Assembly (NCBI GenBank): GCA_026389585.1
Contig: JAPLHP010000095.1
Location: forward strand, 1-40,797
DNA length: 40,797 nucleotides
Direction of reading: 5' to 3'
Source of the DNA: Chloroflexota bacterium
GTDB lineage: Bacteria; Chloroflexota; Dehalococcoidia; UBA2247; RBG-13-53-26
Positions 4,085 to 21,663 of the stretch are shown piece by piece. The translations under genes were made by a program, and so were the position numbers. How positions within the stretch are numbered: position 1 is the first letter of the stretch; each line of letters opens with the position of its first letter. The notes under the pieces are model-generated. The model was not told the origin of the DNA. It saw nothing but the letters and a program-made list of their open reading frames with translations, and did no database searches.

Positions 4085-4116
4085 TTCTGACTCCTGATTC
4101 AATCGGTGTCTAATAT

Positions 4117-4890: not shown

Positions 4891-4891
4891 A

Positions 4892-5071: not shown

Positions 5072-5092
5072 AGTAATCCTCTTGCTACGTTA

Positions 5093-5860
5093 CTATCTCC
5101 TTACGGGAATCCCCTTTCCTGCCAGATAGTCTTTCGCCTGGCGAATCGAGTAGGTCCGGTAGTGAAAAATGCTGGCAGCAAGAACGGCATCCGCCTTGCC
5201 TGCAAGCAGGGCTTGATAAAGATGCTCCAGGTTTCCAGCGCCGCCGCTGGCGATGACCGGTACTGATACCTGCTCGCTAATAGCCCGGGTGAGCCTCAGG
5301 TCATATCCGCTCCGGTGGCCATCATTATCCCAACTGGTCACCAGCAACTCCCCGGCGCCGAGTGCAACGGCCTGATTCGCCCAAACGACGGCGTCAATTC
5401 CCGTTCCCTTCCGGCCGCCGTGAGTAAGAACCTCCCACTTTGGTGCTTCACCGTTTTCCACCAGCCTAGCATCAATGGCTACAACGATACACTGGGAGCC
5501 AAATCTTTCTGCTCCTTTACCTATTAGTTCCGGGTGGAGCACTGCCGCAGTGTTGACGGCTATCTTATCGGCTCCAGCCTTCAGCATCAGTCGCATATCA
5601 TTGACACTGCGCAGCCCTCCACCTACGGTAAGCGGGATGAAAACCTGCTCGGATACACGTTCCACTATCTCTACCATGGTGTTACGGCCCTCAGGCGTCG
5701 CACCAATATCCAGGAAGACCAACTCATCGGCATCTTCCTTATAGTAGAAGGCAGCCATCTCCACAGGGTCACCCGCATCATGGAGATCCATGAAGCTGGT
5801 GCCTTTGACCACTCGCCCGCCGGTCATATCAAGACAGGGTATGATCCTCTTCGTTAGCAT
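5093..5860 (-). CDS. hisF: imidazole glycerol phosphate synthase cyclase subunit (copy 1)
   Basis: HisF uses ammonia delivered by HisH to convert PRFAR to imidazole glycerol phosphate and AICAR. It is a 255-residue half-barrel-repeat TIM barrel. The start [12 protein letters not shown] is canonical, with Arg5 at the ammonia gate and catalytic Asp11. The second catalytic Asp is in VVAIDAR near residue 130. Phosphate-binding loops VGGGLRS and [11 protein letters not shown] are present. It lies downstream of hisH with a 90-base gap, on the same strand. The loop [13 protein letters not shown] differs from the usual TSMDRDGTKDGYD, a mild change. Both HisF copies in this window keep both aspartates. 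No other his genes are nearby, so the pair sits in a nitrogen locus rather than a his operon. Confidence 0.93.
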
Positions 5861-5950
5861 TGCCGAAACCGTCCTTACTTAACTCTGACCATGTTCACTC
5901 CGACTTTGGTATCCACCGACCGCTGGAGGGGCCTTCCCAGGTCACGTGGA

Positions 5951-6571
5951 TTAAGCCCTCTTTCCGGCCAGCGCCATCTTGAGGAAGTTATCGTACATCC
6001 TCAAGCCATGCTCACCGCTCTTCTCAGGATGAAACTGGGTGGCCACCACATTGTCCCTGATCACGACACTGCAGAAAGAAACCCCATATTCTGTTGTTCC
6101 AGCTGTCACAGACAGGTCTTCCGGAGCAGCATAGTAGCTGTGAACAAAATAGAAGTTGGCTCCGTCCGGTATAGAATCAAATAGCGGATGATTCTCTTTT
6201 CGGTTCACCTGGTTCCACCCCATGTGAGGGATCTTGAGCCCTGGCGGCAACCTTCTCACAATTCCAGGGATAATCCCCAGACACCTGTGCCTGCCACCCT
6301 CTTCAGTTTCTGTGAAAAGAACCTGCATCCCCACGCAAACCGCAAAAAGGGGTCTGCCGTCAGTGACTAGCTGACGAACGGCCTGGGACATGCCCGACCT
6401 ATCCAGATTGTGCATGGTATCAGCAGCTGCGCCAACACCGGGGAGGATAACTGCTGCAGCGCTAAGCACATCGCCAGGGTTGCCCGTCACCTTCGGCTGG
6501 TAACCCAGCTTGGCGATGGCATTAGCTACACTGCGCAGGTTTCCGGCACCGTAGTCGATGATGGCAATCAT
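5951..6571 (-). CDS. hisH: imidazole glycerol phosphate synthase glutaminase subunit
   Basis: Class I glutamine amidotransferase that supplies ammonia to HisF. At 206 residues it matches the family. The start MIAIIDYGAGNLRSV is typical. The nucleophile Cys is in FAVCVGMQVLF, slightly altered from CLGMQ, and the His-Glu pair is in TQFHPEKSG. The oxyanion strand segment is ILPGVGAA. The ATG overlaps the stop of the glutaminase/GXGXG gene by 4 bases (ATGA), so it is translationally coupled to the glutamate synthase operon, an unusual home. The 90-base gap to hisF shows no further gene. Confidence 0.94.
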   Translation of the reverse strand: MIAIIDYGAGNLRSVANAIAKLGYQPKVTGNPGDVLSAAAVILPGVGAAADTMHNLDRSGMSQAVRQLVTDGRPLFAVCVGMQVLFTETEEGGRHRCLGIIPGIVRRLPPGLKIPHMGWNQVNRKENHPLFDSIPDGANFYFVHSYYAAPEDLSVTAGTTEYGVSFCSVVIRDNVVATQFHPEKSGEHGLRMYDNFLKMALAGKRA

Positions 6572-9312
6572 TTAACTTTGCCTCCGCTGTCACCATCAAT
6601 ACTCAGTATAAGCGCTTCATTCGGACAGTTGGCAATGGACACCGGGGTCTCCTGTCCAGCGCAGAGGTCATATTTGACCGACTCGCTCAACCCGTCGTCG
6701 TCTTCGGCGGAGGTCCCTGTCTTTTTCGGCCTGATCTTTCTGTAGACGTCTTTGGGGGCCCTTTTTCTATCGTCAATCGTCAAGAGCCGGTCGATGGTGA
6801 TGTCGAAAAGTCTCTCATTCTCTTCGAGATAGGGCTGGATCAATTTCCAGTCGGCATCCGTGATCTTGGCGAACTCGCCGCCATTGAGTTGCTCATCAAC
6901 CAGTTTCCGGTGCGGGTCGCGCACATAGATCGCACCGCCGGAGGCCAGGGAAAAGATATTGGACCCCGGATAAGGCGATTCATACTCCCGGATCGACCCG
7001 TCATTGTCATCAAAGCCGATGCCGTTCAGGATGACAAACCCGCCGCCGTCCAGCGGATCGCCAGCCATGAAGGATTCGGCCAGGTAGTCAAGGGCGGTGC
7101 CGTTGATGACCACGCGCGGCTTGCCGACGGCATTGACCAGGGGTCGTCCGGCGGCATTGCCCATGATATAGGCCGCGCCTCCCTTGGCGCCGTACATGAA
7201 TGTCTGCCCGACATCGCCGAAGACCACCAGCTTGCCCTCTTTCATGATCTGGCAGAGTTGATCCTGGGCGTTGCCGTGCACGTAGATCTCCATACCGTCG
7301 ATACCCGACGCCAGATAGTCGCCGGATGAGCCGTAGACGTCGATCCGCACGCCCTTGGTCGCCGGACCGCAGCCGCAGCCCGTAAACCGCTGGCCGCGGT
7401 ATTTGTACACGATGAAGCGTCGCCAGCCGAGTTTGCAGGCCTTGACTATCATCACTGCATCGCACTTGTCGCCTTCCGGCTCAAAATACTCCGCATCGAT
7501 GACAAGTATCTGATTGTTCTGCTGCGGCGCCCGCAGGGTATCACGGGTGGCGAAATCGATTTGACTGAACTGCGACGCCGTCTTTTCCGTAATCATGGGC
7601 GTGGCGGCCAGTATCTCATCCAGGTTGATTTTCAGGACATGCTGCACGGAGCTGCGCTTGATCCTGCCGGTATGGTAGCGCCGGTCGTTCAACAGGGTCA
7701 GGGCCGTGATGGCCGTTTGCTTGAAGGTATCATTTTTCAGGGCCTGACTTTTGATGATTTCAATCGCGAACCTGAAACTCACGGCATCAAATCCCCTCAT
7801 AGCGTCCCGGACACAGGCGAAAATCTTGTGCGCCGCAGAGGACGCGTCTGCTTCCACGAATAAACCACGGAGACTCTCTTCTATGGGCTTGCCTTCGGGC
7901 GTTGTTTCTTTCAAATCCTTCGAGATATCGCAGATGACCTTATCCTTGGCCGTTTCGATCACCTTCCCGAATTTGTCGGTACAGATGAGCTGCTTGTTGC
8001 CCGAACCGTCGCCGGCATCCTTCAGGCTGAAGATGAACGCGCCACCGTCGGTATGACTGCCGCCGCGGGCGTTCCAGTATTTGTCGGCAATGGGCCTAAA
8101 GCGCGGATCTTCCCGCTCCAGCGATATGAGCGTCGCATCGATGGCCTGTTTTTCCGAGCAGATCAGGCCGATCTTCACCTCGCCCTCCTGCAGGGCGAAC
8201 ACCTGCGGCCTGAGCATGGCCGTATCCGTGAGGCCGATCAGCTGGAACTGATCGTTCTGTACGTCATTGCGGGCGATGATGAAGAACCACGGCCCGTCGG
8301 GCGATGCATAGACGTGATGAGTCTGAATGGCCTTGTATAGCGCCTGCTTTTGTGCCGGCAGCATGTCGAAGTCCATCTCCGAGGTCGGCGCCATGGCCTC
8401 GATCAGGTATTCCAGGGGATATTTGTAGACCCTGCTCCACAGATCGAGCAGGAGCGCCGCCTGCTCCGTATCGGTCCGAAACAGGGGGTGGTAGTTGCGC
8501 TGTTTGAGATATTCGTAAACGGCCTGATAGTTGGCAAAGTCGCCGTTGTGCACGAGGGCCTCGTTGAGCGCGCTGAAGGGATGACAGCCGCCGGGATGCC
8601 AAACCCGGCCGCGGGTCGGATAGCGCTGGTGGGCCAGCCAGGCGTGGGCCTTGAAATCATCCAGTTTATAATAGCGGACGACGTTCTCGGCATAGCCGAC
8701 GATCTTCAGGATCATCATGTTCCGGCCATGGGACATGACAAAGGCCTTCTTTTCGCCGAGGGAGGCATAATATCGCGCGTTGATCCTGAAGCTGTTCTGA
8801 TAGACAAACTCGTCCTCGGCGTCGCGCCGGTCCAGGGAGATGAAATGGTTCTCCGCGATGAATTTATCCAGGACGTCGGCCTTGACACGGACGAAATAAC
8901 GCATAACATCCGGGGGCCTGACATCCAGACCGATACTGCGATGGTCATCGAGCGTGGCGAGCTTCTCGGATTTGTCAATCTTGAAGTAGGGCTTGATGAA
9001 GGTGTTTTCAAGCTCATCCGCCACGCCGGCATCCAGGAGGGCGATGTGGAACATGTAGTCCTCGTCCAGTACCTGCCTTGAAACACCGAGGGCCTCGGGG
9101 ATAAATCCGACGGCGCCAATGCCGCCGCCTTTCCCATTGCCCCGGTTATGCATCTGCACGGAAGGCTCGAAGATGTTTTTTCCGGTCACGGGGATGGAAC
9201 AGATAAATCCGGTGACGCCGCAGCCGCCTTCCTCTTCGGTGTTGGGGGCGAGAATCGGTGTCTGCCTGCACAGTTCAGTGCGTGAAGACAATATTCTTTC
9301 GGCATTATCCAT
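6568..9312 (-). CDS. glutamate synthase glutaminase domain fused to GXGXG domain, no FMN domain
   Basis: About 914 residues. The N-terminal class II amidotransferase domain has the processed nucleophile Cys in EEEGGCGVTGF (residue 31 from this start), a propeptide before it, and the loops HQRYPTRGRVWHPGGCHPF and ALVHNGDFANY near the middle of the domain. It releases ammonia from glutamine. A GXGXG beta-helix follows (about 635-865: GCGCGPATKGV, GDVGQTFMYGAKGG, NGTALDYLAESFMAGD). The central FMN/2-oxoglutarate domain of ordinary GltB is missing and is encoded separately just upstream. ATG 9312 is preferred because GGAG lies 10 bases upstream; ATG 9333 would add 7 residues. It overlaps the preceding gene and, by 4 bases, hisH. 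Fusion of the first and third GltB modules without the second is unusual. Confidence 0.9.
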   Translation of the reverse strand: MDNAERILSSRTELCRQTPILAPNTEEEGGCGVTGFICSIPVTGKNIFEPSVQMHNRGNGKGGGIGAVGFIPEALGVSRQVLDEDYMFHIALLDAGVADELENTFIKPYFKIDKSEKLATLDDHRSIGLDVRPPDVMRYFVRVKADVLDKFIAENHFISLDRRDAEDEFVYQNSFRINARYYASLGEKKAFVMSHGRNMMILKIVGYAENVVRYYKLDDFKAHAWLAHQRYPTRGRVWHPGGCHPFSALNEALVHNGDFANYQAVYEYLKQRNYHPLFRTDTEQAALLLDLWSRVYKYPLEYLIEAMAPTSEMDFDMLPAQKQALYKAIQTHHVYASPDGPWFFIIARNDVQNDQFQLIGLTDTAMLRPQVFALQEGEVKIGLICSEKQAIDATLISLEREDPRFRPIADKYWNARGGSHTDGGAFIFSLKDAGDGSGNKQLICTDKFGKVIETAKDKVICDISKDLKETTPEGKPIEESLRGLFVEADASSAAHKIFACVRDAMRGFDAVSFRFAIEIIKSQALKNDTFKQTAITALTLLNDRRYHTGRIKRSSVQHVLKINLDEILAATPMITEKTASQFSQIDFATRDTLRAPQQNNQILVIDAEYFEPEGDKCDAVMIVKACKLGWRRFIVYKYRGQRFTGCGCGPATKGVRIDVYGSSGDYLASGIDGMEIYVHGNAQDQLCQIMKEGKLVVFGDVGQTFMYGAKGGAAYIMGNAAGRPLVNAVGKPRVVINGTALDYLAESFMAGDPLDGGGFVILNGIGFDDNDGSIREYESPYPGSNIFSLASGGAIYVRDPHRKLVDEQLNGGEFAKITDADWKLIQPYLEENERLFDITIDRLLTIDDRKRAPKDVYRKIRPKKTGTSAEDDDGLSESVKYDLCAGQETPVSIANCPNEALILSIDGDSGGKVK

Positions 9313-10810
9313 TATGAGCAAACTCCGTTTCATGACTGTAATCTATATGCTCCAGCAAGTCCGTCCGTCCGACGAGTTCCTTGACGCTACGCATGCCGAA
9401 CCTCTGGAGGATCTCGACCAGCTGGACATTCCAGGCATGGTACATATTGACCAGGCGCTGTGTCGCCCAATCCTCGTCAAACAGGTCGGCCAGCTCGGAG
9501 TCCGTTGAGGCGATGCCCCGAGCGCAGCCACGTCCCGATTCACAGTTGCCGCAGCGGACGCACTCCAGCGATACCAACTCCGCCGTGCCGATAACTACCC
9601 CATCGGCACCCAGGCAGATGGCCTTGGCCAGGTCATGGGCGGTCCGGATGCCGCCGGAGGCGATGAGCGTCATGGCATCGCGGGCGCCCTCGTCCTTCAG
9701 AAAGTTATGGACCTTGGTGATGGCATACTCGATGGGCATGGCGATGTTCTTCTTGGCGATATCGGGCGCTGCCCCGGTGCCGCCGTAGCCGCCGTCGATA
9801 TGGATGATATGCGCGCCAGCATAGTACGAGCCCACGGCGACCATGTCCACGTCGTTGGGGGTTGAAACCTTGACGGATACCAGGGCGTTGGGGTTCATCT
9901 CCTTAACCCAGTCGATGTGCTTCTTGTGATCTTCGATAGAATACACCGAGTGGAACGGGAAGGGGGAAAACAGCGGGTAACCCTTGACGGCCTCGCGCAT
10001 TTTAGCCACGCTTTCCGTATTTTTTTCACCGAGAAGGTGCCCGCCGAGGCCGGGCTTGGCGCCCTGGGCATATTTGAACTCGATGATTTTTACCCGCTGG
10101 ATGGTCTCCTCGCGCACCCCGAACAGGCCGGTGGCGATCTGGGTGATCACGTGGTCATCGTACGGCTGGAGCATCTCGGGGTAGCCGCCCTCGCCGGTGC
10201 AGGTAAAGGTATTCCATATGGTCGCATTGCGCGCCTTGGAAACCATGGTAGGCAGGCTCACCGATCCGAAGGACATGCCGCCGCCGTAAACGGGGGTGGA
10301 AATGACCACGTTCGCCCGCCCGTCGTTTCTGCGGTTCAGCGGGATGGCGGTGGAGATCTCGGATTTATCCACCTGGGGTGGATGGGCGGGGAACTTGAAC
10401 CGCAGCTTGTCGAAGCCGCCGCCGGAATTGCCCACGTTATATTCGAGGTCGGTGCGCTGCGGCGGATAGCCGGTCTCGGCCATGATCCAGGTCCCAGTGA
10501 TCATGTCCGCGGTCCAGCGGAAGTCGCCCAGCGTCGCATACATGGGGTTCAACGACAGGCTCAAGGCCTTGCGCGGGCATTTGGCGACGCAGTAGAAATC
10601 CTTGCCCTGGCATTCGAAGCCGATGCATTTGTAGTCGATGGGCGGCTTGACCTTGTTATGCCCCTCGACCCTTTCATGCACGCCGTAAGGGCATGCCCTG
10701 GCACACGTACCGCAGTTGATGCAGGCATCGGAGCGGGTGACCTTGTATTTCGGCACCTGGTGCTTGAACCTGGAAGGCATCTTTCTGATTTTTACGGTTG
10801 ATGGTTTCAT
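9305..10810 (-). CDS. glutamate synthase FMN/2-oxoglutarate domain protein with N-terminal ferredoxin domain
   Basis: A 501-residue archaeal-type GltB2. The N-terminal ferredoxin domain has one standard 4Fe-4S motif (C30, C33, C36, C40: CINCGTCARACP) and an unusual second motif (CIGFECQGKDFYCVAKCP). The FMN barrel follows (about 165-460), with STPVYGGGMSFGSVS, GEGGYPEM, KPGLGGHL, IDGGYGGTGAAP and ASGGIRTAHDLAKA. A further cysteine cluster, CVRCGNCESGRGC, matches the 3Fe-4S region of GltB. It would reduce 2-iminoglutarate to glutamate using reduced FMN. Its ATG overlaps the upstream gene by 4 bases (ATGA). No NADPH-oxidising GltD is in the window, so electrons must come from ferredoxin or from the neighbouring FAD/Fe-S protein (inference). 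Confidence 0.9.
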   Translation of the reverse strand: MKPSTVKIRKMPSRFKHQVPKYKVTRSDACINCGTCARACPYGVHERVEGHNKVKPPIDYKCIGFECQGKDFYCVAKCPRKALSLSLNPMYATLGDFRWTADMITGTWIMAETGYPPQRTDLEYNVGNSGGGFDKLRFKFPAHPPQVDKSEISTAIPLNRRNDGRANVVISTPVYGGGMSFGSVSLPTMVSKARNATIWNTFTCTGEGGYPEMLQPYDDHVITQIATGLFGVREETIQRVKIIEFKYAQGAKPGLGGHLLGEKNTESVAKMREAVKGYPLFSPFPFHSVYSIEDHKKHIDWVKEMNPNALVSVKVSTPNDVDMVAVGSYYAGAHIIHIDGGYGGTGAAPDIAKKNIAMPIEYAITKVHNFLKDEGARDAMTLIASGGIRTAHDLAKAICLGADGVVIGTAELVSLECVRCGNCESGRGCARGIASTDSELADLFDEDWATQRLVNMYHAWNVQLVEILQRFGMRSVKELVGRTDLLEHIDYSHETEFAHNG

Positions 10811-12216
10811 ACGCTCACTGCTTCTCTTTTTTTAAATAGTTTTCCAAAGGTGTCTTTGTCTATTTCTTCAAAGAATATGGCCCGGCCGCTTTCTCCCCGC
10901 AGACGACGGGCCTCGCGAATACCCATGGCACCCATCATCTCCAGTATCTGCGAATGCCAGGCCCCCATGAGGTTAACGATCCGCTGGGTGACGATGGGGA
11001 GCGGAATTTTACCAAGCCCTTCCGGGAAAATCAGCAATTTCTCCGGCTCCTCATAGATCCTGGCACCCAGAGCAATCATGAGCGGTATGTCTATGGCCGT
11101 CAGGTCGGCGCCGCAGAGCATGGCCTTGGGCACGTGCTCCGCCATGGCGATACCGCCCGAGGCGATAAGGGTGATCTCATCGCGGATCCGGTCTTCCACC
11201 AGCCTCAGGTGGACGGCCCGGATAATGTCCTTGAGGAGACGCCGATCCGATCCCGCCGAACCGTTGAGCTCCTGGCCGCGGTAATCGGCCACGATGTGGA
11301 TGATCTCCGCGCCGCTGTGCGCCAGCTTGGCAACGATGCCTTCCACGTCGTTCATGGCTGGGATGCGTATGATGGTAAGGGCATCGCTGAGCTTTTTGAT
11401 CTTTTTCTTCAGGCCCGGAAAATCGTTCAGCACCGCATCGCTATATTCGATGGACACGAGGCGCGCCTTTTTTAGTACGGCCTTATGCGTGTCGATTTCT
11501 GTGGGCGCAAGGCAGGGGATGATGTTGTCGCGATATTTCTCGACCCTGGGTGTGATGTCGGCCGCCGGCATGATGATGCAGGTGCTGATCTCTGCGGCCG
11601 CCTTTACCAGGGCCTCCTTGACATTCGAACTCAGATTATCCGCCGGGGTATCGAAGAGGATGGGTATGGGGAGATCGACGGTATCCGGGACCGTCGATGC
11701 CAACTGCCCGTCCGCATCAAAGGTCAGGTGATTGAGTTTGCGGCCCAGGTCAACGGAGGTGCTGATATATTCCCGTCCGTGGATCCCGTCGCGGGTCGGA
11801 CGCACGATCTCGGACATGTCGGTCCACATGCTGTCGAAACCCGTTCCGGTAAACGGTCCGCGGTAACCGGCACCGGAAACGGGGACCTTTCCGTCCTCGG
11901 CCTGCTTCCAGAGGCTGATCAACATATCGGGTTTCCAGAACGCACCGCCGATATTGGTAAAATCCTTATCAAGGGATTTCTCCAGGGCCCCCCGCGGGCA
12001 CTCCTGGATGCAGCGGAAACAGTTCCTGCATACCACGGTGTTCGGGTCTGCCATCTTGCGCGGATCGTCTTTGCGGCGTTTGTGCGCTTCATAGATACAA
12101 ACCTTCGTGCATTTGCCGCAATTGATGCAGTTTTCCCCCCGCACGATCTTGAATTTAAATACATAGTCCAGATCGAGGGGTGTAATCTTGGGGTGAATGT
12201 GATATTTCTTTGGCAT
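10807..12216 (-). CDS. degenerate paralog of the glutamate synthase FMN domain, with two intact 4Fe-4S motifs
   Basis: 469 residues with the same layout as its downstream neighbour: ferredoxin motifs at C30-C33-C36-C40 and C63-C66-C69-C73 are both intact, and a barrel domain follows. The catalytic signatures are lost. Where the active copy reads IDGGYGGTGAAP this one reads VADYRGQELNGSAG, the GGGMSFGS loop is replaced, and the late cysteine cluster is missing (IALGARIYEEPEKLL). The segment ASGGIAMAEHVPKAMLCGAD and the C-terminal region (NLMGAWHSQILEMMGAMGIREARRL) still align. I infer a pseudoenzyme that carries electrons through its iron-sulfur clusters and pairs with the active copy. It is cotranscribed between the FAD oxidase and the active FMN subunit. 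Confidence 0.78.
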   Translation of the reverse strand: MPKKYHIHPKITPLDLDYVFKFKIVRGENCINCGKCTKVCIYEAHKRRKDDPRKMADPNTVVCRNCFRCIQECPRGALEKSLDKDFTNIGGAFWKPDMLISLWKQAEDGKVPVSGAGYRGPFTGTGFDSMWTDMSEIVRPTRDGIHGREYISTSVDLGRKLNHLTFDADGQLASTVPDTVDLPIPILFDTPADNLSSNVKEALVKAAAEISTCIIMPAADITPRVEKYRDNIIPCLAPTEIDTHKAVLKKARLVSIEYSDAVLNDFPGLKKKIKKLSDALTIIRIPAMNDVEGIVAKLAHSGAEIIHIVADYRGQELNGSAGSDRRLLKDIIRAVHLRLVEDRIRDEITLIASGGIAMAEHVPKAMLCGADLTAIDIPLMIALGARIYEEPEKLLIFPEGLGKIPLPIVTQRIVNLMGAWHSQILEMMGAMGIREARRLRGESGRAIFFEEIDKDTFGKLFKKREAVSV

Positions 12217-12258
12217 AGTCTTTATCCGTCTTTTTAGATTCTGTTTATATACGGAGGT

Positions 12259-14100
12259 TCAGCTGTTCTGCTCCACCATATCCCAGTACTCCTTGCTGGC
12301 ATCGACCTTTTTCAGAAATTCCGCGATCTGAGCCTCCGGCCGGCCGAATTGACCTTCAAGCCTTTTTTCCAGGGCGTCCCAGAGCATCATCAGCTCGAGG
12401 TTGGTCTGGCATATCTCCTCGCAGGCCTTGCAGTGCATACACATGAAGGCATTGGCGGCTTCCTCCCGCGTCACGGCCTGGCCGGCAAGAAGTTTCTTGG
12501 CCAGGGCGATCTTCCCTTTGGCCGTTGCAGCTTCATTTTGGGTGACAAGATAGGCCGGGCATACCGCTATGCAGTTTCCACATTTGGCGCACGCATGGGT
12601 GCTGAGCTCGAAATCCAGGCTGTCAATCTTCTTATCGTCTCCCAGAAGGGTTGTGGCGACTTTCCCGATCACAGGCGCCATCAGCACCATGAGCTGCATG
12701 GAAGGACCGAAAACGGCTGGATGGAAGATCAGGGCGGAGATCCCCTTTGAACCGACGCTGAAGAATTTGCCCGGGTTCAGGATATTGTTGGGGTCCACCC
12801 GGGCCTTGTAGTCCTTCAGGTCGCGCAGTTTGGCACTGCTGTACAGGTTATGGATAAAGGCGGCATTCCAGAGGCCAAGCCCGTATGGTTCCGCACCCAG
12901 CGCCACCGCGGCCTTGGTGAGTATGGAAACCAGGGGCAGGTTGATATAATATTTCTTGGTCCTGGAATCGCACAGGAAGGTGGACATGATGAGCGCCTTA
13001 TGGGCATCGATGATGTAGGAGTCGATACAGATCTCCACCCCGAAATGGCCGCCTATCTTCTTGGCCTTTTCGATAAAGGCGGCGGCCGACGTAATCGGGA
13101 TGATGATTTCACTGGCCAGGATGGTCGGCCCCAGGCGCTTGATCTTCATGCCGAACAGGCGCTCGTTCCAGAGGTAGCTCGCAACGTAGCGGGGCGCTTC
13201 TTCAATGCTGCCGTTTCGAGCCATGGATTTTACGAAATGCTCTTCATCCTCGGCGCTGCCGAACTCCACCATAACGGCGGCGCTCTTCTTGAATATGCCG
13301 GCCCGCATGATCTCGTTGGTATCGGCCAGTTGATTTTCATCCAAAAACCGGATGACATTGGGGTTGAGCTGCGCGGCGCTCAGATCTCTTACGAACCGGC
13401 CGATGAAGGCAAAGGCCTCCTTGTCGCTCGGAAAATACAGGAGATGGGGGTATGAACCCTGAGGAACATCCCGCAACTTTAGGGTTACCTCAACCACGAT
13501 GCCGAACTCTCCCTCGGTGGAGACGAAGTAGGTGAAATCACGGTCCGATGGGGATAGCTGCTTGACCTCGCCGGTGCCCGTGACGACCGTCATGGACACG
13601 ATCTGTTTCGACAAGTGGCCGTACTTGAAGCTGTTGATGCCATATCCTCCGGTCGAGATCCAGCCGCCCACCGTGGAAAACTTGCTTGAGGGGTATGTCA
13701 TCAGACACAAGCCCTCTTTCTTGGCCATGATGTCGATATCGCTCCAACGGGCGCCCGCTTCTACGGTAACGGTCTTTTGGGCAGTGTTGATCGCCACGAT
13801 CTTCCGGAAGGGGGACAGGTCGATAACGATTCCCGCGTTGGTCGGGATGACGCCGCCGAAGCCCCACGAGGCGGCGCCTCTCGGCACCACGGGGATTTTC
13901 AGATCGTTGGCAAACGCCAGGACCTTTTCTATCTCATCTACATTTTTAGGCTGGACGACGAAATCGGGTAACGTCTTAAAAAACGTTTTGGTCATGATCA
14001 GCGGTACATCACCGATGTCATAACTGTACATCTCTCTTTCTGCCGCATTGTCGATGATTTTTATATCGCCCGCGATCTTTATGAGCTCATCTGTCTTCAT
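12259..14100 (-). CDS. FAD-linked oxidase fused to a C-terminal two-cluster ferredoxin domain (GlcD/GlcF-like)
   Basis: 613 residues. Residues about 30-210 form a PCMH-type FAD-binding domain (VVPRGAASWGFGGVIP, TVEAGARWSDIDIMA, STVGGWISTGGYGINSF). The FAD-linked oxidase C-terminal domain follows, ending near RVDPNNILNPGKFF. The C-terminus carries two 4Fe-4S motifs (CAKCGNCIAVCPAYL and CMHCKACEEICQTNL), as in GlcF but without the later cysteine-rich CCG domains. Such proteins oxidise 2-hydroxyacids (lactate, glycolate) and pass electrons to iron-sulfur carriers. It is the first gene of the minus-strand operon leading to the glutamate synthase subunits, 42 bases upstream of the pseudo-subunit. 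It may therefore feed electrons into glutamate synthesis; this is inference. The ribosome site is weak (GAAGAGAC). Confidence 0.85.
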   Translation of the reverse strand: MKTDELIKIAGDIKIIDNAAEREMYSYDIGDVPLIMTKTFFKTLPDFVVQPKNVDEIEKVLAFANDLKIPVVPRGAASWGFGGVIPTNAGIVIDLSPFRKIVAINTAQKTVTVEAGARWSDIDIMAKKEGLCLMTYPSSKFSTVGGWISTGGYGINSFKYGHLSKQIVSMTVVTGTGEVKQLSPSDRDFTYFVSTEGEFGIVVEVTLKLRDVPQGSYPHLLYFPSDKEAFAFIGRFVRDLSAAQLNPNVIRFLDENQLADTNEIMRAGIFKKSAAVMVEFGSAEDEEHFVKSMARNGSIEEAPRYVASYLWNERLFGMKIKRLGPTILASEIIIPITSAAAFIEKAKKIGGHFGVEICIDSYIIDAHKALIMSTFLCDSRTKKYYINLPLVSILTKAAVALGAEPYGLGLWNAAFIHNLYSSAKLRDLKDYKARVDPNNILNPGKFFSVGSKGISALIFHPAVFGPSMQLMVLMAPVIGKVATTLLGDDKKIDSLDFELSTHACAKCGNCIAVCPAYLVTQNEAATAKGKIALAKKLLAGQAVTREEAANAFMCMHCKACEEICQTNLELMMLWDALEKRLEGQFGRPEAQIAEFLKKVDASKEYWDMVEQNS

Positions 14101-15018: not shown

Positions 15019-15068
15019 GCACTCCACAGGTCATTATACCGAACTTCATCATGAGGGGGCAAAGAGAA

Positions 15069-15839
15069 GTGAAGATAGTAAAGGTAATACCATGCCTGGA
15101 TATGAAGGATGGCAGGGTAGTCAAAGGGATCAAGTTTGTTAATCTGAGGGATGCCCGTGACCCTGTGGAGGCTGCCGCAGCGTACTGCCGCGAGGGTGCT
15201 GATGAGCTGGCCTTCCTTGACATTGCGGCCACTGTTGAAGGCAGGCCCACCAAGCTCGAATGGGTGAAGAAGGTCCGCAAGGCAGCTACCGTCCCCTTCA
15301 CTGTAGGCGGCGGGATCAGAGACATAGCCGACATGAGGAAGCTCTTCGATCTCGGCGTAGATAAGGTCTCCATCAACACTGCGGCTGTCAAGAATCCAGA
15401 CCTTATAAAGGAGGCCTCCCGCACCTTCGGCAAGGAAAAGCTGGTGGTTGCCATCGATGGCAAGAAGAACCCGCCGGGGAGCAAACTCCCCAGGCTCGAA
15501 GTGGTGATAAGGGGTGGAATGGAGGGAACCGGCCTCGACATTGTGGAATGGGCCAAGAAGGTGGAGAAGCTGGGAGCAGGAGAGATACTGCTGACCAGCA
15601 AGGATGCCGACGGGACGAAGGAGGGCTACGACCTGGAGATGACCAAGGCCGTAGCTGAAGCGGTAAGCATACCCGTCACTGCTTCGGGTGGGGCTGGCAA
15701 GCTGGAGCACCTCTATGAAGCTGTGGTGACAGGCAAGGCCTCTGCCGTACTGTGTGCCTCCGTTTTCCACTTTGGAGAGATCACCATCCCCCAGGCGAAG
15801 AAATATCTGGCCGAGAAGGGGATACCGGTAAGAATCTGA
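15069..15839 (+). CDS. hisF: imidazole glycerol phosphate synthase cyclase subunit (copy 2)
   Basis: A second complete HisF, about 256 residues from GTG 15069, which has a G-rich site (AGGGGG) about 10 bases upstream; ATG 15051 would add six residues. It keeps catalytic Asp in VIPCLDM and in VVAIDGKKN, and the loops VGGGIRDIADM, TSKDADGTKEGYD and ASGGAGKLEHL. The ammonia-gate Arg5 position is Lys (MKIVKVIPCLD), and residues differ widely from copy 1, so it is not a recent duplicate. No hisH follows. It heads an operon with NuoE/F/G-like subunits and a glutamate-synthase-like protein, with a 43-base gap to nuoE. It could be the housekeeping HisF, or a variant drawing ammonia from another source (inference). 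Confidence 0.9.
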   Translation: MKIVKVIPCLDMKDGRVVKGIKFVNLRDARDPVEAAAAYCREGADELAFLDIAATVEGRPTKLEWVKKVRKAATVPFTVGGGIRDIADMRKLFDLGVDKVSINTAAVKNPDLIKEASRTFGKEKLVVAIDGKKNPPGSKLPRLEVVIRGGMEGTGLDIVEWAKKVEKLGAGEILLTSKDADGTKEGYDLEMTKAVAEAVSIPVTASGGAGKLEHLYEAVVTGKASAVLCASVFHFGEITIPQAKKYLAEKGIPVRI

Positions 15840-15882: not shown

Positions 15883-16359
15883 ATGGGAGTCGATTTCAAG
15901 AAGGTAGATACTATAGTCGATGAATATGGCTGCAACCGCGACAGCCTCATTTCCATACTTCAGGACATACAGTCTGAATATCGCTATCTGCCTGAAGATG
16001 TGCTGAGGCAGGTGGCCAGGCGGCTGGATCTGCCGCTGATTCAAGTTTATGGCGTAGCCACCTTCTTCAAGTCATTCAGCCTGAAGCCTCGCGGCGAGCA
16101 TTTGGTCCACGTTTGCCTGGGCACTGCCTGCCATGTGCGAGGTGCTCCTGCCGTCCTGGATGAAGTAAAGAGGCAACTTGGCGTCGAAGCCGGAGAGACG
16201 ACGAAAGACATGCAGTTTACGCTGGAGACGGTGAACTGTCTCGGGGCTTGCGCCCTAGGCCCTATCGTGGTTGTTGATAGCAACTACCAGGGGCAGGTGC
16301 GGCCGGGGAAGGTGAAGGGTGTCCTCAAGCAATACAGGAAAGGCACTGAAGGGAAGTAG
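15883..16359 (+). CDS. NuoE-like [2Fe-2S] subunit (HydC/HndA/BfuC type)
   Basis: 158 residues, the 24-kDa subunit family of complex I and of bifurcating hydrogenases. The thioredoxin-fold [2Fe-2S] ligands are C78, C83, C119 and C123 (HVCLGTACHVRG, NCLGACALGP). The N-terminal helical part contains SLISILQDIQSEYRYLPEDV and the VYGVATFFKSF segment typical of the family. It passes electrons near the flavin of the NuoF-like partner. It begins a three-gene NADH-oxidising module; the next gene starts 2 bases after its stop. No complex I membrane subunits or hydrogenase genes accompany it. Confidence 0.92.
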   Translation: MGVDFKKVDTIVDEYGCNRDSLISILQDIQSEYRYLPEDVLRQVARRLDLPLIQVYGVATFFKSFSLKPRGEHLVHVCLGTACHVRGAPAVLDEVKRQLGVEAGETTKDMQFTLETVNCLGACALGPIVVVDSNYQGQVRPGKVKGVLKQYRKGTEGK

Positions 16360-16361
16360 AG

Positions 16362-18221
16362 ATGAAGAAACTAGGGTCAGCAGTAGAACTGGAGCAGTTG
16401 CGCAAGAAGATCGCCAGCCAGCGCGATCCGAAACGCACTTGTATTGTTACCAGTGTGGGAACGTGCGGACTGGCCCGCGGTGCGGCTGGTGTAGCACAAG
16501 CCATCAGCGCGGAATTGAAAAAGGACGGTCTGAATGGCTCCGTGGATCTGCGGACAACGGGCTGCCATGGCTTCTGTGAGATAGAGCCAGTGGTAGTGAT
16601 ATACCCCAAGAGAATTGTCTATCAACACGTCACGCCTGCTGATGTGCCCGAGATAATCTCGGAGACGGTCTCCAAAGGCAAGATTATCACAAGGCTCCTC
16701 TACACCAACCCTGCCACAGGACGAAAGATAGTCCGCGAGCAGACCATACCTTTCTATGGCAAGCAGTACCGTCTTCTCACCGATAGCATTCGCTTCATAG
16801 ATCCCCACAATATAGAGGATTACATCGCCTTGGGTGGTTACTCGGCACTATGCAAGGTGCTATTCGACATGCACCCTGAAGAAGTGCTCGATGAAATCAG
16901 TAGATCCGGGCTGCGTGGCCGCGGCGGTGCCGGGTTCCCAACATTCAGGAAGTGGGAGTCCGCCCGCAATGCCCCTTCATACGACGGCATCCGTTATGTC
17001 ATCTGTAATGCTGATGAAGGCGACCCGGGCGCCTACATGGACAGGAGCCTCCTTGAAGGGAATCCCCACAGCGTCATTGAAGGAATGATCATTGGCGCGT
17101 ACACGATGGGCTCGCATCACGGGTATGTCTACGTCAGAAACGAGTACCCCTTAGCAGTGGAGAACCTGCGCATAGCATTGGACCAGGCAAGGCAATACGG
17201 TCTGCTAGGGAGGAACATCCTCGGCTCCAATTTCGACTTTGACATCAAGATCTCCAGAGGTGGCGGCGCATTCATCTGCGGCGAGTCCACTGCCCTTATG
17301 GCCTCACTGGAGGGCAGGATAGGCGAACCGCGTCCCAAGCATATTCACACAGCCCTCAAGGGGCTCTATGGCCGGCCTACCAACCTGAACAACGTGGAGA
17401 CCTGGGCCAACGTGCCTCTCATCATCAACCGCGGCGCCAAATGGTACACGACGATTGGTACCGAGGGCAGCAAGGGAACCAAGATCTTCTCTCTGGTGGG
17501 CAAGATCAACAATACGGGACTGGTTGAGGTACCAATGGGAATCACCTTGAGAGAGATGGTCTATGACATTGGCGGTGGCATCCGTGGCGGGAAGAAATTC
17601 AAGGCAGTGCAAACGGGCGGCCCATCAGGCGGCTGTATCCCTGAGAGCCTGATTGACCTACCTATTGACTTCGACAGGCTAGCTGAATCCGGATCAATGA
17701 TGGGCTCCGGTGGCATGATCGTCATGGATGAGGGAACCTGCATGGTTGACATGGCCAGGTACTTCGTCAAATTCTTGACAGAGGAATCCTGCGGCAAGTG
17801 TGTGCCCTGCCGTGAGGGACTGGACAGGATGCTGGATATCCTCACCGACATTACTGAGGGGCGGGGGAAGAAAGAAGATATCGAACTCTTGGAAGAACTG
17901 GGCGATGTCATCAAGGAGGCTTCGCTCTGCGGACTGGGTGGGACTGCTCCCAACCCCGTTCTCTCCACCATCAGGTATTTCAGAGACGAATACGAAGCTC
18001 ATATCACAGACAGGCGTTGCCCCGCAGGCGTATGCAAGGCGCTCATCACCTTCACGGTCGATGCAGTGAACTGCACCGGCTGCAGGGTCTGTGCCAGAGA
18101 ATGCCCGCAGGGTGCCATATCAGGCGAGAAGAAGGAAATACATTTCATCGATCAAGGTAAGTGCATCAAATGCGGGCTTTGTCGTGACCTCTGCAAGTTC
18201 GATGCAGTTCTAGTCTCATGA
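16362..18221 (+). CDS. NuoF-like NAD(H)/FMN subunit with extra Fe-S domains (HydB/HndC/BfuB type)
   Basis: 619 residues. Domains in order: a thioredoxin-like [2Fe-2S] domain (about 1-120; CIVTSVGTC and GCHGFCEIEP); the 51-kDa domain with GLRGRGGAGFPTFRKW, NADEGDPGAYMDR (FMN) and GGGAFICGESTALM (NAD); a SLBB segment; the 4Fe-4S motif SCGKCVPCREG with its fourth Cys in CGLGGTAPNP; and a C-terminal two-cluster ferredoxin domain (CTGCRVCARECP and CIKCGLCRDLC). This is the layout of HydB/HndC in bifurcating [FeFe]-hydrogenases and of the Bfu family core. It would oxidise NAD(P)H or reduce NAD(P)+ at FMN. It lies between nuoE-like (2-base gap) and nuoG-like (12-base gap) genes. Confidence 0.93.
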   Translation: MKKLGSAVELEQLRKKIASQRDPKRTCIVTSVGTCGLARGAAGVAQAISAELKKDGLNGSVDLRTTGCHGFCEIEPVVVIYPKRIVYQHVTPADVPEIISETVSKGKIITRLLYTNPATGRKIVREQTIPFYGKQYRLLTDSIRFIDPHNIEDYIALGGYSALCKVLFDMHPEEVLDEISRSGLRGRGGAGFPTFRKWESARNAPSYDGIRYVICNADEGDPGAYMDRSLLEGNPHSVIEGMIIGAYTMGSHHGYVYVRNEYPLAVENLRIALDQARQYGLLGRNILGSNFDFDIKISRGGGAFICGESTALMASLEGRIGEPRPKHIHTALKGLYGRPTNLNNVETWANVPLIINRGAKWYTTIGTEGSKGTKIFSLVGKINNTGLVEVPMGITLREMVYDIGGGIRGGKKFKAVQTGGPSGGCIPESLIDLPIDFDRLAESGSMMGSGGMIVMDEGTCMVDMARYFVKFLTEESCGKCVPCREGLDRMLDILTDITEGRGKKEDIELLEELGDVIKEASLCGLGGTAPNPVLSTIRYFRDEYEAHITDRRCPAGVCKALITFTVDAVNCTGCRVCARECPQGAISGEKKEIHFIDQGKCIKCGLCRDLCKFDAVLVS

Positions 18222-18233
18222 AGAGGGAAAGAC

Positions 18234-18902
18234 ATGATTGAATTGACGATTGACGGAACCAAGGTAAGGGTGGAGAAAGGAACCAGCGTCCTTGAAGCAG
18301 CCAAAGAGATGGGCATCACCATCCCGACTCTTTGCTACTATCCCGGCCTCAGTTCCTATGGTGAGTGTCGTGTCTGCCTGGTGGAGGTAGTCAAAGGGAA
18401 GAATCGCTCATCGCTGGAGGCATCATGCGCAATGCCGGTAGAGCAGGGGTTGGTCATCCGGACCAATTCGGAGAAGGCGAAGAAGGCACGTAAGCTGGTT
18501 GTGGAACTCCTGATTGCCTCATGTCCCACCTCAAAGACGCTGCAGGATATGGCCTCCAACATGGGCATCAACAGGATCCGTTTCAAGATAAAGGATAGGG
18601 GGTGCATCCTCTGCGGGCGCTGCGTGCGCTACTGTAAAGAACAGATGCGGTCGGGCGGTATCGGATTCGTGGGCCGCGGAACGTCACGCAGGGTAGCCAC
18701 AGCCTTTGGAGTCACCCCAGCGGAGTGCCGCAATTGCGGCGGATGCGAATGGATCTGTCCGGTTTGCGAGCGGGCCTGCACAGCCAATAACCTGATCAAC
18801 GGCCTCTGCGGGGGTTGCCAGAACCTGGCACCCGTTGAGACCTGCGCCATATGCACAGGGTGCTCCGAGAGCGTAGGGGCGCATGGACACACGGTCTACT
18901 AG
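18234..18902 (+). CDS. NuoG/HoxU-like Fe-S subunit with a cysteine-rich C-terminal tail
   Basis: 222 residues. The N-terminal [2Fe-2S] domain has C34, C45, C48 and C65. The usual NuoG His-Cys cluster region is reduced to a single SCPT (C97). The two 4Fe-4S motifs are C124-C127-C130-C134 and C165-C168-C171-C175. A tail adds C178, C182, C192, C195, C204, C207 and C210 (CERAC, CGGC, CAICTGC), which I have not seen in standard NuoG, HoxU or HydA N-termini. There is no molybdopterin or H-cluster domain, so the subunit should hand electrons to another catalytic partner, most simply the FMN glutamate-synthase-like protein encoded 57 bases downstream. Tail function is unknown. Confidence 0.88.
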   Translation: MIELTIDGTKVRVEKGTSVLEAAKEMGITIPTLCYYPGLSSYGECRVCLVEVVKGKNRSSLEASCAMPVEQGLVIRTNSEKAKKARKLVVELLIASCPTSKTLQDMASNMGINRIRFKIKDRGCILCGRCVRYCKEQMRSGGIGFVGRGTSRRVATAFGVTPAECRNCGGCEWICPVCERACTANNLINGLCGGCQNLAPVETCAICTGCSESVGAHGHTVY

Positions 18903-18959: not shown

Positions 18960-20537
18960 ATGACACTGACAAGGTATAACGCAACGGCTTCCACACTGAC
19001 CAAGAACAGGACGGGTGGCGACTGGTGCCCCATCAGCGGCATGTGCGTCACCTGCGTTGATGGCTGCATCGGCATGTGCGAGATAGGCAAGAGCGCCTAC
19101 CGTGGTCACGAGGTGCTCTACCCACAGCCATTCGGCATCATCACGACCGCGTCGCAGAAGGCCTATCCTATAGACCTGTCACATTTCAATATAATGGGGA
19201 CAGCCGTGGGAGCCTATGGCATGGAAGCAGACTCCGATAAGGCTATCTTCCCGAACGTCAGCCTGGAATCGTGGTTGGGTCGTGATAGAGGAATCAAGCT
19301 GCGCCTGCCCTTTATTATCCCTGGCCTGGGTTCTACCAATGTCGCCGGGCAGAACTGGGATGGCTTAGCCATCGGCTCAGCTATGTCAGGTATACCGCTG
19401 ACCATCGGCGAGAATGTCTGCGCCATGGACGTGGACTCCAAGATAACCAAGGGGAGAATCGTGTCTTCCCCCGATATGGAGAGGCGGGTCAAGCTCTACA
19501 AGGAGTGGCAGAGCAATGGCTACGGCGGCATCATCGTGCAGGCAAACGTTGAAGACTTCCGCCTGGGCGTGCTGGAATATGCTATTGAGAAGCTGGGCGC
19601 TACCGGCGTGGAACTGAAGTGGGGACAGGGTGCGAAGGACATCGGCGGCGAAGTCAAGCTCAAGAGCCTTGAAAAGGCACAGCTACTGAGTAAGCGCGGC
19701 TACATTGTGCTCCCCGACCCGTTGGATCCCTTCGTAGTAGAGGAGTTTAAGAAGGGGGTCTTCACCGAGTTTGAGAGACACTCCCGCGTTGGCATGGTTA
19801 CCAAAGAGGGTTTCATGAAACAAGTGAAGCAACTGCGCGATGCCGGTGCTAAATACATCTCTCTAAAGACAGGTGCCTACCGGCCGGCAGATCTGGCCCG
19901 CGCGGTCAAATTCTCCTCTATAGCCAAGATTGATTACCTTACTGTTGACGGAGCTGGCGGCGGCACCGGTATGAGCCCTTGGCGCATGATGAACGAATGG
20001 GGCGTCCCCGGCGTCGAGCTGTGGTCACTGCTGCACGAGTACTGTGATCGCCTGGCTAAGAAGGGTCAGTATGTACCCCCTGTGGTACTGGCAGGCGGCT
20101 TTGTTCTGGAAGACCAGATATTCAAGGGCCTGGCACTGGGTGCTCCTTATGTGAACGCCATCGGCATGGCCAGAGGGCCGCTGGCTGCGGCTATGGTTGG
20201 CAAGACCATCGGCGAGGCCATTAAGAGCCAGGAACTCCCAGTCTACTTCGAGCGATTTGGTGGTACCAGGGAATCCATCTTCGTCACTGCCGAATCACTG
20301 AAGCGGGAATATGGCAAGGCCTATGAGAAGATGCCAACCTCGGCTATCGGCCTCTATACCTACCTGGAGCGACTGGCTCAGGGGTTGCGCCAGTTGATGG
20401 CTGGCAACCGGAAGTTCGGTGTCGAGCACATAAGCCGCGATGACATCGCAGCGCTGACACCAGAGGCAACCAGAGTGAGCGGCATTCCTCTCGTTACCGA
20501 CATCGATGCCAAAGAGGTAGACAAGATACTGGCGTAG
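18960..20537 (+). CDS. FMN-binding glutamate-synthase-family protein with N-terminal cysteine cluster
   Basis: 525 residues, the GltB2-like FMN barrel family. The N-terminus has five cysteines (C23, C29, C32, C36, C40: MCVTCVDGCIGMC), probably an iron-sulfur site, followed by EIGKSAYRGHEVLYPQPFG. Barrel signatures include VDGAGGGTGMSPW (FMN phosphate/active-site loop) and VLAGGFVLEDQIFKGLALGA. The late 3Fe-4S cysteine cluster of GltB is absent. A strong ribosome site (AAGGAGAT) precedes the ATG. It closes the NuoEFG-like operon, so I infer it is the catalytic subunit of that complex. The substrate may be 2-oxoglutarate plus ammonia, but the family also contains members of unknown reaction. 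No glutaminase domain is fused. Confidence 0.87.
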   Translation: MTLTRYNATASTLTKNRTGGDWCPISGMCVTCVDGCIGMCEIGKSAYRGHEVLYPQPFGIITTASQKAYPIDLSHFNIMGTAVGAYGMEADSDKAIFPNVSLESWLGRDRGIKLRLPFIIPGLGSTNVAGQNWDGLAIGSAMSGIPLTIGENVCAMDVDSKITKGRIVSSPDMERRVKLYKEWQSNGYGGIIVQANVEDFRLGVLEYAIEKLGATGVELKWGQGAKDIGGEVKLKSLEKAQLLSKRGYIVLPDPLDPFVVEEFKKGVFTEFERHSRVGMVTKEGFMKQVKQLRDAGAKYISLKTGAYRPADLARAVKFSSIAKIDYLTVDGAGGGTGMSPWRMMNEWGVPGVELWSLLHEYCDRLAKKGQYVPPVVLAGGFVLEDQIFKGLALGAPYVNAIGMARGPLAAAMVGKTIGEAIKSQELPVYFERFGGTRESIFVTAESLKREYGKAYEKMPTSAIGLYTYLERLAQGLRQLMAGNRKFGVEHISRDDIAALTPEATRVSGIPLVTDIDAKEVDKILA

Positions 20538-20571: not shown

Positions 20572-20601
20572 GCCGCGCCTGACCTAGCGCTCAGGCGCGG
20601 C
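20572..20601. other. strong GC-rich hairpin between the FMN protein and nrpR2
   Basis: GCCGCGCCTGA at 20572-20582 and TCAGGCGCGGC at 20591-20601 form a perfect 11-bp stem with an 8-base loop. It is nested inside a weaker repeat, TTGAGCT (20565-20571) and AGCTCAA (20630-20636). It lies 35 bases after the glutamate-synthase-like stop. No T-run follows, so it is either a non-canonical terminator/mRNA-end stabiliser or an operator for nrpR2. Confidence 0.6.
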
Positions 20602-20667: not shown

Positions 20668-21663
20668 ATGATAGGTTCCAGCAGCGTCGAAGTAGAGAGG
20701 AAAGTCAATGCTATCCTCAGGATATTGAGTGAGTCGCCTGAGGCTGTCGGCGCCAGGGTGATCGGTCGCCAGTTGAAGGAGCAGGGCATCGACCTCAGTG
20801 AGAGGGCAGTGAGGTATCACCTGAAGCTGATGGATGAGCGGGGACTGACGCAGCTGGCAGGAAGGGATGGGAGGCTGATCACACCAGCCGGGGTCGAGGA
20901 GCTGCAGAATGCCCTGGTTGGTGACAAGGTTGGCCTCTTTATTAACCGGATAGAGCTAGTCTCGTTTCGCACCACCTTTGATTGGCAGAGCCGGAGCGGG
21001 TTCGTGCCAGCCAACCTCTCGCTTTTTGATAGGGACGATTTCCCAAGGGCGCTGAAGGCAATGAGGAACGCATTCAAGGCGGAGATATCCGTCGGAGATC
21101 TGGTGGCAGTGGCCAGGGAGGGAGAGAAGCTGGGAGGCAGAACTATACCCAAAGGCAAGATCGGCTTTGCCACAGTATGCAGTGCTGTGGTCACCGGGGT
21201 CCTCCTCAAAGCCGGCGTACCTACGGATTCAAGATTCGGCGGCATACTGCAGATCAGAGACCATAAGCCACTTCGTTTCGCGGAGATCATCTACTACAGC
21301 GGCACCTCTTTGGATCCATCAGAGGTCTTCATCAGGGGCAAGATGACCAACGTGACTGAAGCGACCAAGAAGGGTGAGGGGAAAGTACTGGCCAACTGCG
21401 CTGAAGTTCCGGCCCAATGTAGACCTTTAGCAGAAGGTATAATTGCCAGGCTGAAGGAAGCCCACCTGGGCAGCCTCGCTGTTATGGGAAATGTCGGCGA
21501 ACCGATCTGCGAGGTCTCGGTAGATCCGAACAGGGTAGGGGTAGTCCTGCTCGGTGGATTGAACCCTGTTGCCGCTGCTGAAGAAGCCGGCGTGGAGGCA
21601 GAGAATGCTGCTATATGCTCTGTTGTAGAATACCGACGACTGAGGAGCTTCTGGGAATTATAG
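20668..21663 (+). CDS. nrpR: NrpR-type nitrogen transcriptional regulator (copy 2)
   Basis: 331 residues, collinear with the protein at 3,065-4,084: winged helix (VERKVNAILRILSESPEAVG, AVRYHLKLMDERGLTQ), then one NrpR domain (EGEKLGGRTIPKGKIGFATV, SRFGGILQIRDHKPLRF, SGTSLDPSEVF, VVLLGGLNPVAAAEEAG). The ATG has no obvious ribosome site directly upstream, and the start is supported by alignment to copy 1. It follows the NuoEFG/glutamate-synthase operon by 130 bases and its last codons overlap the convergent DUF1015 gene by 6 bases. Two single-domain NrpRs flanking the glutamate synthase genes could form a heteromer or control the two operons separately (inference). Confidence 0.87.
   Translation: MIGSSSVEVERKVNAILRILSESPEAVGARVIGRQLKEQGIDLSERAVRYHLKLMDERGLTQLAGRDGRLITPAGVEELQNALVGDKVGLFINRIELVSFRTTFDWQSRSGFVPANLSLFDRDDFPRALKAMRNAFKAEISVGDLVAVAREGEKLGGRTIPKGKIGFATVCSAVVTGVLLKAGVPTDSRFGGILQIRDHKPLRFAEIIYYSGTSLDPSEVFIRGKMTNVTEATKKGEGKVLANCAEVPAQCRPLAEGIIARLKEAHLGSLAVMGNVGEPICEVSVDPNRVGVVLLGGLNPVAAAEEAGVEAENAAICSVVEYRRLRSFWEL

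Follow-up and report, generated by a model that had tools for sequence, protein, structure and literature searches.

An electron-transfer subunit encoded by a Chloroflexota bacterium carries a cysteine-rich C-terminal tail that, judged from gene order, follows a single partner, a divergent glutamate-synthase-like FMN protein termed GluSynL. The genes lie on a stretch of 40,797 nucleotides (contig JAPLHP010000095.1), which is referred to as the window throughout. The tail is real and ancient and extends an otherwise described subunit type, since the core of the protein is, by its motifs and closest structures, an ordinary Type 2 BfuA of the electron-bifurcating Bfu family. The whole is best explained by a Type 2 Bfu enzyme in which the tail would form the interface to GluSynL and GluSynL would produce glutamate, a reading to which we assign a probability of about 0.5.

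The tail-bearing protein (BfuA, P0001) comprises 222 amino acids and is encoded at 18234..18902 on the + strand; its assignment draws on the open reading frame, Pfam and PDB matches by sequence and fold. A [2Fe-2S] ligand region (C34, C45, C48 and C65; 18333..18428, +) is covered by a Fer2_4 match and is invariant in the BfuA alignment, as are the columns of two [4Fe-4S] motifs, C124-C134 and C165-C175 (18603..18758, +). The second of these motifs reads C165-x2-C168-x2-C171-x3-C175-P, and its opening cysteine begins at position 18726. Where the His-Cys cluster of NuoG and HydA would be expected (18513..18545, +), the alignment places 'ASCPTSKTLQDMAS' opposite a segment of HydA1 (8a6t_A) with extra cysteine and histidine residues, which bears out the absence of this region reported in an earlier note on the same DNA. 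As a mark of novelty, however, the absence does not hold, because a missing His-Cys cluster already defines the Type 2 BfuA (PMC9304861), and a short BfuA of this kind is what the definition leads one to expect. In the terms of the Bfu scheme, clusters A1, A2 and A4 are kept and A3 and A5 are absent, with A3 being the His-Cys cluster in our own reading. The closest solved chain in a profile search is 9mqx_A (E 2.4e-51), which is also the top fold match (Z 20.7, rmsd 2.2 over 179 residues, model of residues 1-180). This chain belongs to a bifurcating tungsten aldehyde oxidoreductase, i.e., it is itself a Type 2 BfuA, and the title of the structure suggests that it is the A. mobile enzyme; the fold match stops at residue 180, where the tail starts. 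An assignment as ordinary NuoG or HoxU was rejected, as the NCBIfam scores fall far under the cut-offs (NuoG, 111.6 bits, cut-off 470; HoxU, 101.2 bits, cut-off 333).

BfuA is preceded by BfuC (NuoE/HydC-like, [2Fe-2S] thioredoxin-like fold; 15883..16359, +; PF01257, E 9.5e-51) and BfuB (NuoF/HydB-like; 16362..18221, +; Pfam). Members of the Bfu family are recognized by a BfuB with Nuo51 FMN, SLBB, NADH_4Fe-4S and 4Fe-4S ferredoxin domains and a NuoE-like BfuC, and the ligands of the B2 [2Fe-2S] cluster in bifurcating enzymes include a histidine that is missing from non-bifurcating homologues (PMC9304861). The window's BfuB consists of an N-terminal [2Fe-2S] domain, the FMN/NADH domain, the B1 cluster, the B2 ligands and a C-terminal 2x[4Fe-4S] domain; PF01512, PF10589 and PF00037 match above cut-off, as does PF01257 in BfuC, and SLBB (PF10531) reaches 24.2 bits at a cut-off of 27. 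These Pfam entries are what we take to be the equivalents of the InterPro entries of that family description. The B2 ligands are intact, with C460, T498, H547, C553 and C558 all at the published spacing (PMC9304861), and the motif H-x5-C-x4-C recurs in 70 out of 70 BfuB proteins examined from GluSynL-linked loci (among the best 80 of at least 578 relatives, see below; seven of the 77 loci with adjacent BfuA and GluSynL gave no BfuB match). In 29 of these 70 proteins (26 by a scripted rule; L093, L095 and L135 by eye), the ferredoxin domain, which the window's own BfuB retains, is replaced by a C-terminal GltD-like FAD domain. L104:4009-7221 is such a fusion, and the one fusion tested matched Fer4_20 and Pyr_redox_2.

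The genes run in the order HisF, BfuC, BfuB, BfuA, GluSynL, separated by 43, 2, 12 and 57 bp. The HisF paralogue that leads this operon (15051..15839, +; Pfam His_biosynth) holds the same place in several relatives, and a second HisF paralogue, about 54% identical to it, is found at 5093-5860 within the same nitrogen island. Adjoining the operon downstream is an NrpR-like nitrogen regulator (20668..21663, +; Pfam NRD1_2 and HTH_12), and another regulator with these two domains is encoded at 3065-4102 of this Chloroflexota window. In methanogens the NrpR operator is GGAA-N6-TTCC; with one mismatch allowed, this methanogen motif occurs 23 times in the window, where 19.0 matches are expected, and since it is not enriched, there is no sign of NrpR controlling the operon. 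An inverted repeat past GluSynL (20572-20601) was rejected as a terminator, as no T run comes after it. Upstream of BfuC in loci of planctomycetes and Zixibacteria lies a cysteine-rich ORF of about 114 amino acids (L121:4103-4447 and similar ORFs in nine other loci), often beside a histidine kinase and a sigma-54 regulator; it contains two CxxC...C...W-x-CE units, and the one tested gave no Pfam match.

Beyond its second [4Fe-4S] motif the window BfuA holds exactly seven cysteines (C178, C182, C192, C195, C204, C207 and C210), the number given in the earlier note, and together with H219 they make up the tail (18765..18899, +; sequence and alignment). Past residue 178, Pfam matches neither this protein nor the BfuA of the Dethiobacter-type locus L111; no solved chain in the PDB aligns across the whole tail, with a tail-only query giving E 0.2 or worse, and AlphaFold pLDDT values below 50 for residues 198-222 render the predicted tail fold unusable. 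Tails were read in 76 of the loci among the best 80 of at least 578 GluSynL relatives (L082, in which the match began late, was excluded): 59 contain eight cysteines and 14 contain seven, and the odd ones have six (L067), four (L081) or one (L143) after the second motif, the latter two looking truncated. For the alignment these three were removed on account of their odd tails, L096, L122 and L138 were dropped to keep the set small, and the window protein was added, leaving 71 BfuA sequences from about twenty phyla. In this alignment every sequence has C182, C192, C195, C204 and C207, and 97% have C178, whereas the majority residue averages 49% in the non-cysteine columns of the tail. Comparison of the window with seven relatives from the Chloroflexota gives the tail a dN of 0.07-0.14 at a dS of about 0.6 to saturated, and purifying selection acts on the tail about as strongly as on the core. 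The conservation of the cysteines, set against the other tail columns, and the low dN therefore place them beyond chance.

The aligned tails fall into two types with a perfect split. The common type (58 of 71) has two extra cysteines and neither C210 nor a Gly-His pair, and the type found in the window (13 of 71) has C210 and an invariant Gly-His (H219) and neither of the extra cysteines; L067, outside the alignment, lacks C178 but possesses the Gly-His. Either way a tail offers eight potential ligands, eight cysteines or seven cysteines and a histidine, which is the number that two four-ligand metal sites would need. The cysteines thus suffice for further metal sites, as had been claimed, and the tail is probably a metal-binding module.

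The association of the tail with GluSynL was traced in a search of 84,980 species genomes, which encode at least 578 GluSynL relatives; the best 80 were analysed as loci L064-L143, a selection biased to close relatives of the window protein. Within these 80 loci, BfuA lies directly upstream of GluSynL on the same strand in 77, and in the other three (L088, L103 and L120) the contig edge is 21, 381 and 113 bases away from GluSynL. The loci cover about twenty named phyla, comprising bacteria and five archaeal loci, and 25 of the 80 have no phylum name. Among more distant GluSynL proteins (48-59% identity), 16 of 17 loci are devoid of Bfu genes in the stretch examined, and the seventeenth, L153, does contain a Bfu, but a different one, its BfuA being without such a tail. 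As GluSynL without a Bfu neighbour is common, the tail is not needed for the chemistry of GluSynL. As a specificity control, 400 Chloroflexota genomes were searched with a profile, scoring a maximum of seven candidates per genome, and 41 BfuA-like matches were obtained in 27 genomes. Only those of the window genome (G000) and of G032 reach profile position 230, the next ending at 203 and 199, and both of these tail-bearing BfuA have GluSynL downstream. Thirty of the 41 matches were read as loci, and none of the 28 without this tail has GluSynL within the short stretch examined: 14 bear a shorter four-cysteine CxxC...CxxC tail, eight have no tail, in four the BfuA forms part of a longer fused chain, L165 carries a four-cysteine tail of another kind and L014, at a contig end, has six cysteines. 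In L163 and L164 (Chloroflexota genomes G229 and G073), the BfuA core is fused to a long, HdrA-like chain (by eye) that bears additional FeS motifs.

In a quick tree of the BfuA core region only, the 42 rows with the tail fall into one group, and the tail label needs two changes relative to the 33 others; L014 is placed at the base of the tail-bearing group on a long branch (support 89). A single origin of the tail is likely, albeit not proven. The suggestion that the tail defines a new subunit type stands in so far as it marks a distinct subfamily tied to one partner, but not with regard to the core, which is that of an ordinary BfuA with 9mqx_A as best match. Similarly, the tail is indeed standard in a subfamily, and a very widespread one, but we found no description of it, and in the Chloroflexota loci read, BfuA proteins with other partners lack it.

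GluSynL (P0002; 18960..20537, +; Pfam, hhalign and fold) is a protein of 525 amino acids with a divergent FMN barrel of the glutamate synthase type and is the presumed catalytic partner of BfuABC. Its sole Pfam match is Glu_synthase (PF01645; 43.6 bits, residues 280-399 only), and hhalign relates it with a probability of 95.2% to the window's own other Glu_synthase protein. GluSynL and glutamate synthase have in common the elements E-[IL]-K-x2-QGAK and GGTG-x-SP, the latter represented by the loop GGGTGMSP (19956..19979, +), which in the alignments is homologous to GGTGASP of glutamate synthase. By these sequence criteria GluSynL is related to, though divergent from, the FMN domain of glutamate synthase. 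The best fold matches are FMN barrels broadly, i.e., 2-hydroxyacid oxidases, type 2 IPP isomerase and equally glutamate synthase; a single-sequence search of the PDB matched nothing, and profile matches were limited to designed barrels and were judged to be chance. At the N-terminus, C29-x2-C32-x3-C36-x3-C40 (19044..19079, +) forms a putative [4Fe-4S] site that is invariant in the GluSynL alignment and present in 80 of 80 loci (best 80 of at least 578). According to Pfam the chain contains neither a glutaminase nor a GXGXG domain; in the split, archaeal-type glutamate synthases these two reside on separate chains. The [3Fe-4S] motif that follows the barrel in GltB was not found in GluSynL, where only C154 and C362 occur beyond the N-terminus, the pattern used having detected such a motif in the GltB-type proteins L192 and L191 and missed three other GltB-type controls.

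The gene context points to glutamate. A GDH-type gene occurs in 14 and GlnA in five of the best 80 of at least 578 loci (one representative of each was confirmed), NrpR, HisF and GlnA are found near standalone GluSynL genes, and besides its two NrpR genes the nitrogen island of the window holds an ammonium transporter and a second glutamate-synthase-like set, which is split. This set, likewise divergent (4117-14100, - strand), encodes a GXGXG protein, a GATase and GXGXG protein of 921 amino acids, a GlcD/FeS-type FAD oxidase and two Glu_synthase proteins that begin with a ferredoxin domain; its gene order is partly conserved in G009 (L038), and it looks like another unusual nitrogen enzyme. 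HisF directly adjoins standalone GluSynL in L144, L147 and L148. The GltD-like FAD domain at the end of 29 of the 70 BfuB proteins adds to the glutamate link. Across 118 genomes of the class with a completeness of 90 or more, GluSynL is present in 35. Twelve of the 118 lack both a large-score Glu_synthase and a strong GDH match, and eight of these twelve hold GluSynL, so that both GltB and GDH are missing from 8 of 35 genomes with GluSynL versus 4 of 83 without it (Fisher p 0.006, kinship ignored). That GluSynL simply replaces GltB was rejected as too strong a claim (GltB missing from 10 of 35 versus 11 of 83, p 0.065, kinship ignored). A large-score glutamate synthase is also carried by 25 of the 35 GluSynL genomes, and hence GluSynL is often not the sole route to glutamate. 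In G032 (99% complete), which has a Bfu-linked GluSynL, searches for GltB, GXGXG and GDH found none, and glutamine synthetase is matched only in part, with an internal stop.

Members of the Bfu family catalyse reversible bifurcation among NAD(H), ferredoxin and a third substrate, which in Type 2 enzymes is handled by one or more separate subunits (PMC9304861). On the basis of the motifs and gene order we infer that BfuABC and GluSynL form a complex and that the tail binds metal. BfuC and BfuB would be supplied with electrons by NADH and, going by the family, by reduced ferredoxin, and would pass them through FMN and B1 to the [2Fe-2S] and the two [4Fe-4S] clusters of BfuA. The tail is located right after the last of these ferredoxin clusters, where a partner must dock, which lends support to the placement at the catalytic partner proposed in the earlier note. 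It would fold around two metal sites, using the six universal cysteines plus either two further cysteines or C210 and H219, and would serve as a dedicated interface from BfuA to GluSynL. Electrons would then pass from the tail, which stands about an even chance of being an FeS relay, to the FMN and the four-cysteine site of GluSynL, and GluSynL would reduce a 2-oxo or 2-imino acid, most likely 2-oxoglutarate, which together with glutamine or ammonia would yield glutamate. The 2-oxoglutarate/glutamate couple has a potential of about -0.12 V, so the third substrate would be a high-potential one, like those of the quinone and peroxide members, and the reaction would run towards glutamate. Glutamate as the product of GluSynL and bifurcation or confurcation by the complex are each, we estimate, an evenly balanced prospect.

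The tail could instead be a structural zinc dock off the electron path, with the ferredoxin cluster of BfuA passing electrons directly to the four-cysteine site of GluSynL. Structural zinc in the tail, and with it such a dock, is a possibility that we hold tentatively: the spaced CxxC pairs resemble zinc knuckles, a replacement of cysteine by histidine of the kind seen here is typical of zinc sites, and the shorter CxxC...CxxC tail in half of the 28 other BfuA loci indicates that a small cysteine domain is common at this position; however, eight ligands behind an electron-carrying cluster, together with the four-cysteine site of the partner, are equally compatible with a relay. A functionless extension that is decaying or arose by accident would fit the low AlphaFold confidence and the loss of most of the tail from L081 and L143, but is hardly credible, as it is already contradicted by five cysteines invariant in 71 homologues and by purifying selection.

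With regard to the reaction, GluSynL might convert some other amino, imino or 2-oxo acid within a Bfu enzyme that has a different third substrate. This is a serious alternative, if somewhat short of an even chance, given that GluSynL has lost the [3Fe-4S] motif and the glutaminase and GXGXG domains, is equally close in fold to 2-hydroxyacid oxidases and mostly coexists with a large-score glutamate synthase; a GDH gene in the same neighbourhood, as in 14 loci, would also be odd if both enzymes formed glutamate. Conversely, the enrichment of GluSynL in genomes without GltB and GDH, the surrounding GlnA, NrpR and Amt genes and the active-barrel motifs held in common with glutamate synthase argue for glutamate. 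It is improbable that BfuABC and GluSynL work as independent enzymes and are merely encoded side by side: GluSynL does occur alone in most of its more distant loci, but all 77 informative loci, drawn from about twenty phyla (best 80 of at least 578), keep the order BfuA-GluSynL, and among the 30 Chloroflexota loci read the tail was not found in a BfuA without GluSynL. The preferred reading, a tail that bridges a Type 2 Bfu core to a glutamate-forming GluSynL, can be extended to a phylum-spanning, undescribed class of enzymes that feed NADH and ferredoxin electrons through the Bfu core to a glutaminase-free, FeS-bearing glutamate-synthase barrel, with the tail as a two-cluster bridge; in some anaerobes such an enzyme would be the only net source of glutamate. 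This extension is speculative.

The enzyme marked by the tail is widespread and apparently undescribed as far as the literature search reaches. In the open-licence PMC literature, with supplements and subscription papers outside its scope, no paper was recognized that describes BfuABC with a glutamate-synthase-like subunit. The word "glutamate" does not occur in the main text of PMC9304861, and the part of that paper which names the Bfu partners includes no glutamate-synthase-like protein, although the GluSynL-linked group may well be contained in an unnamed clade of the published BfuB tree, which has 57 clades. The Bfu family thereby gains an apparently unlisted third-substrate module, and the tail provides a one-motif marker for annotating BfuABC-GluSynL complexes, its cysteine-to-histidine swap being a precise handle on the docking of BfuA and partner. 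If the proposed function is true, many uncultured anaerobes would couple the assimilation of ammonia directly to their NADH/ferredoxin balance, many anaerobic microbes may have an unrecognized route to glutamate, and a genome without GltB and GDH need not indicate a glutamate auxotroph.

The Type 2 kinds described are Wor, Bam, Por, Codh, Mbh and FdhFeFe (PMC9304861); their catalytic partners are not found beside the window's BfuABC, the neighbours of which are HisF, GluSynL and NrpR. The prototype, Wor-Bfu of A. mobile (BfuABCSL; PMC9304861, PDB 9mqx), resembles the window system in its BfuABC with A1/A2/A4-type clusters and no His-Cys cluster, in a separately encoded partner subunit, presumed in the case of GluSynL, and in being the top sequence and fold match to the window BfuA. 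It differs in that its partner is a tungsten aldehyde oxidoreductase rather than a glutamate-synthase-like FMN protein, and in lacking the eight-ligand tail. In the sub-type I BfuABC [FeFe]-hydrogenases of Hydrogenedentota (PMC11406978), the ferredoxin domain of BfuB is replaced by DPD_II and FAD/NAD(P) domains, just as in 29 of the 70 GluSynL-linked BfuB proteins; yet their BfuA is a hydrogenase, and the window's BfuB retains the ferredoxin domain. The Stn or Nfn-Bfu transhydrogenase likewise joins a HydBC-like core to NuoG-like and GltD-like domains, but there NADPH is bound by the GltD-like domain, which is part of the NuoG-like subunit, and the part of PMC10482914 describing the enzyme reports no GluSynL partner. 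Finally, the alpha subunit of glutamate synthase and the archaeal-type GltB (PF01645) share with GluSynL the FMN barrel and the motifs E-K-x2-QGAK and GGTG-x-SP, whereas GluSynL is devoid of a glutaminase domain, a GXGXG domain and a [3Fe-4S] motif and bears a new four-cysteine site at its N-terminus.
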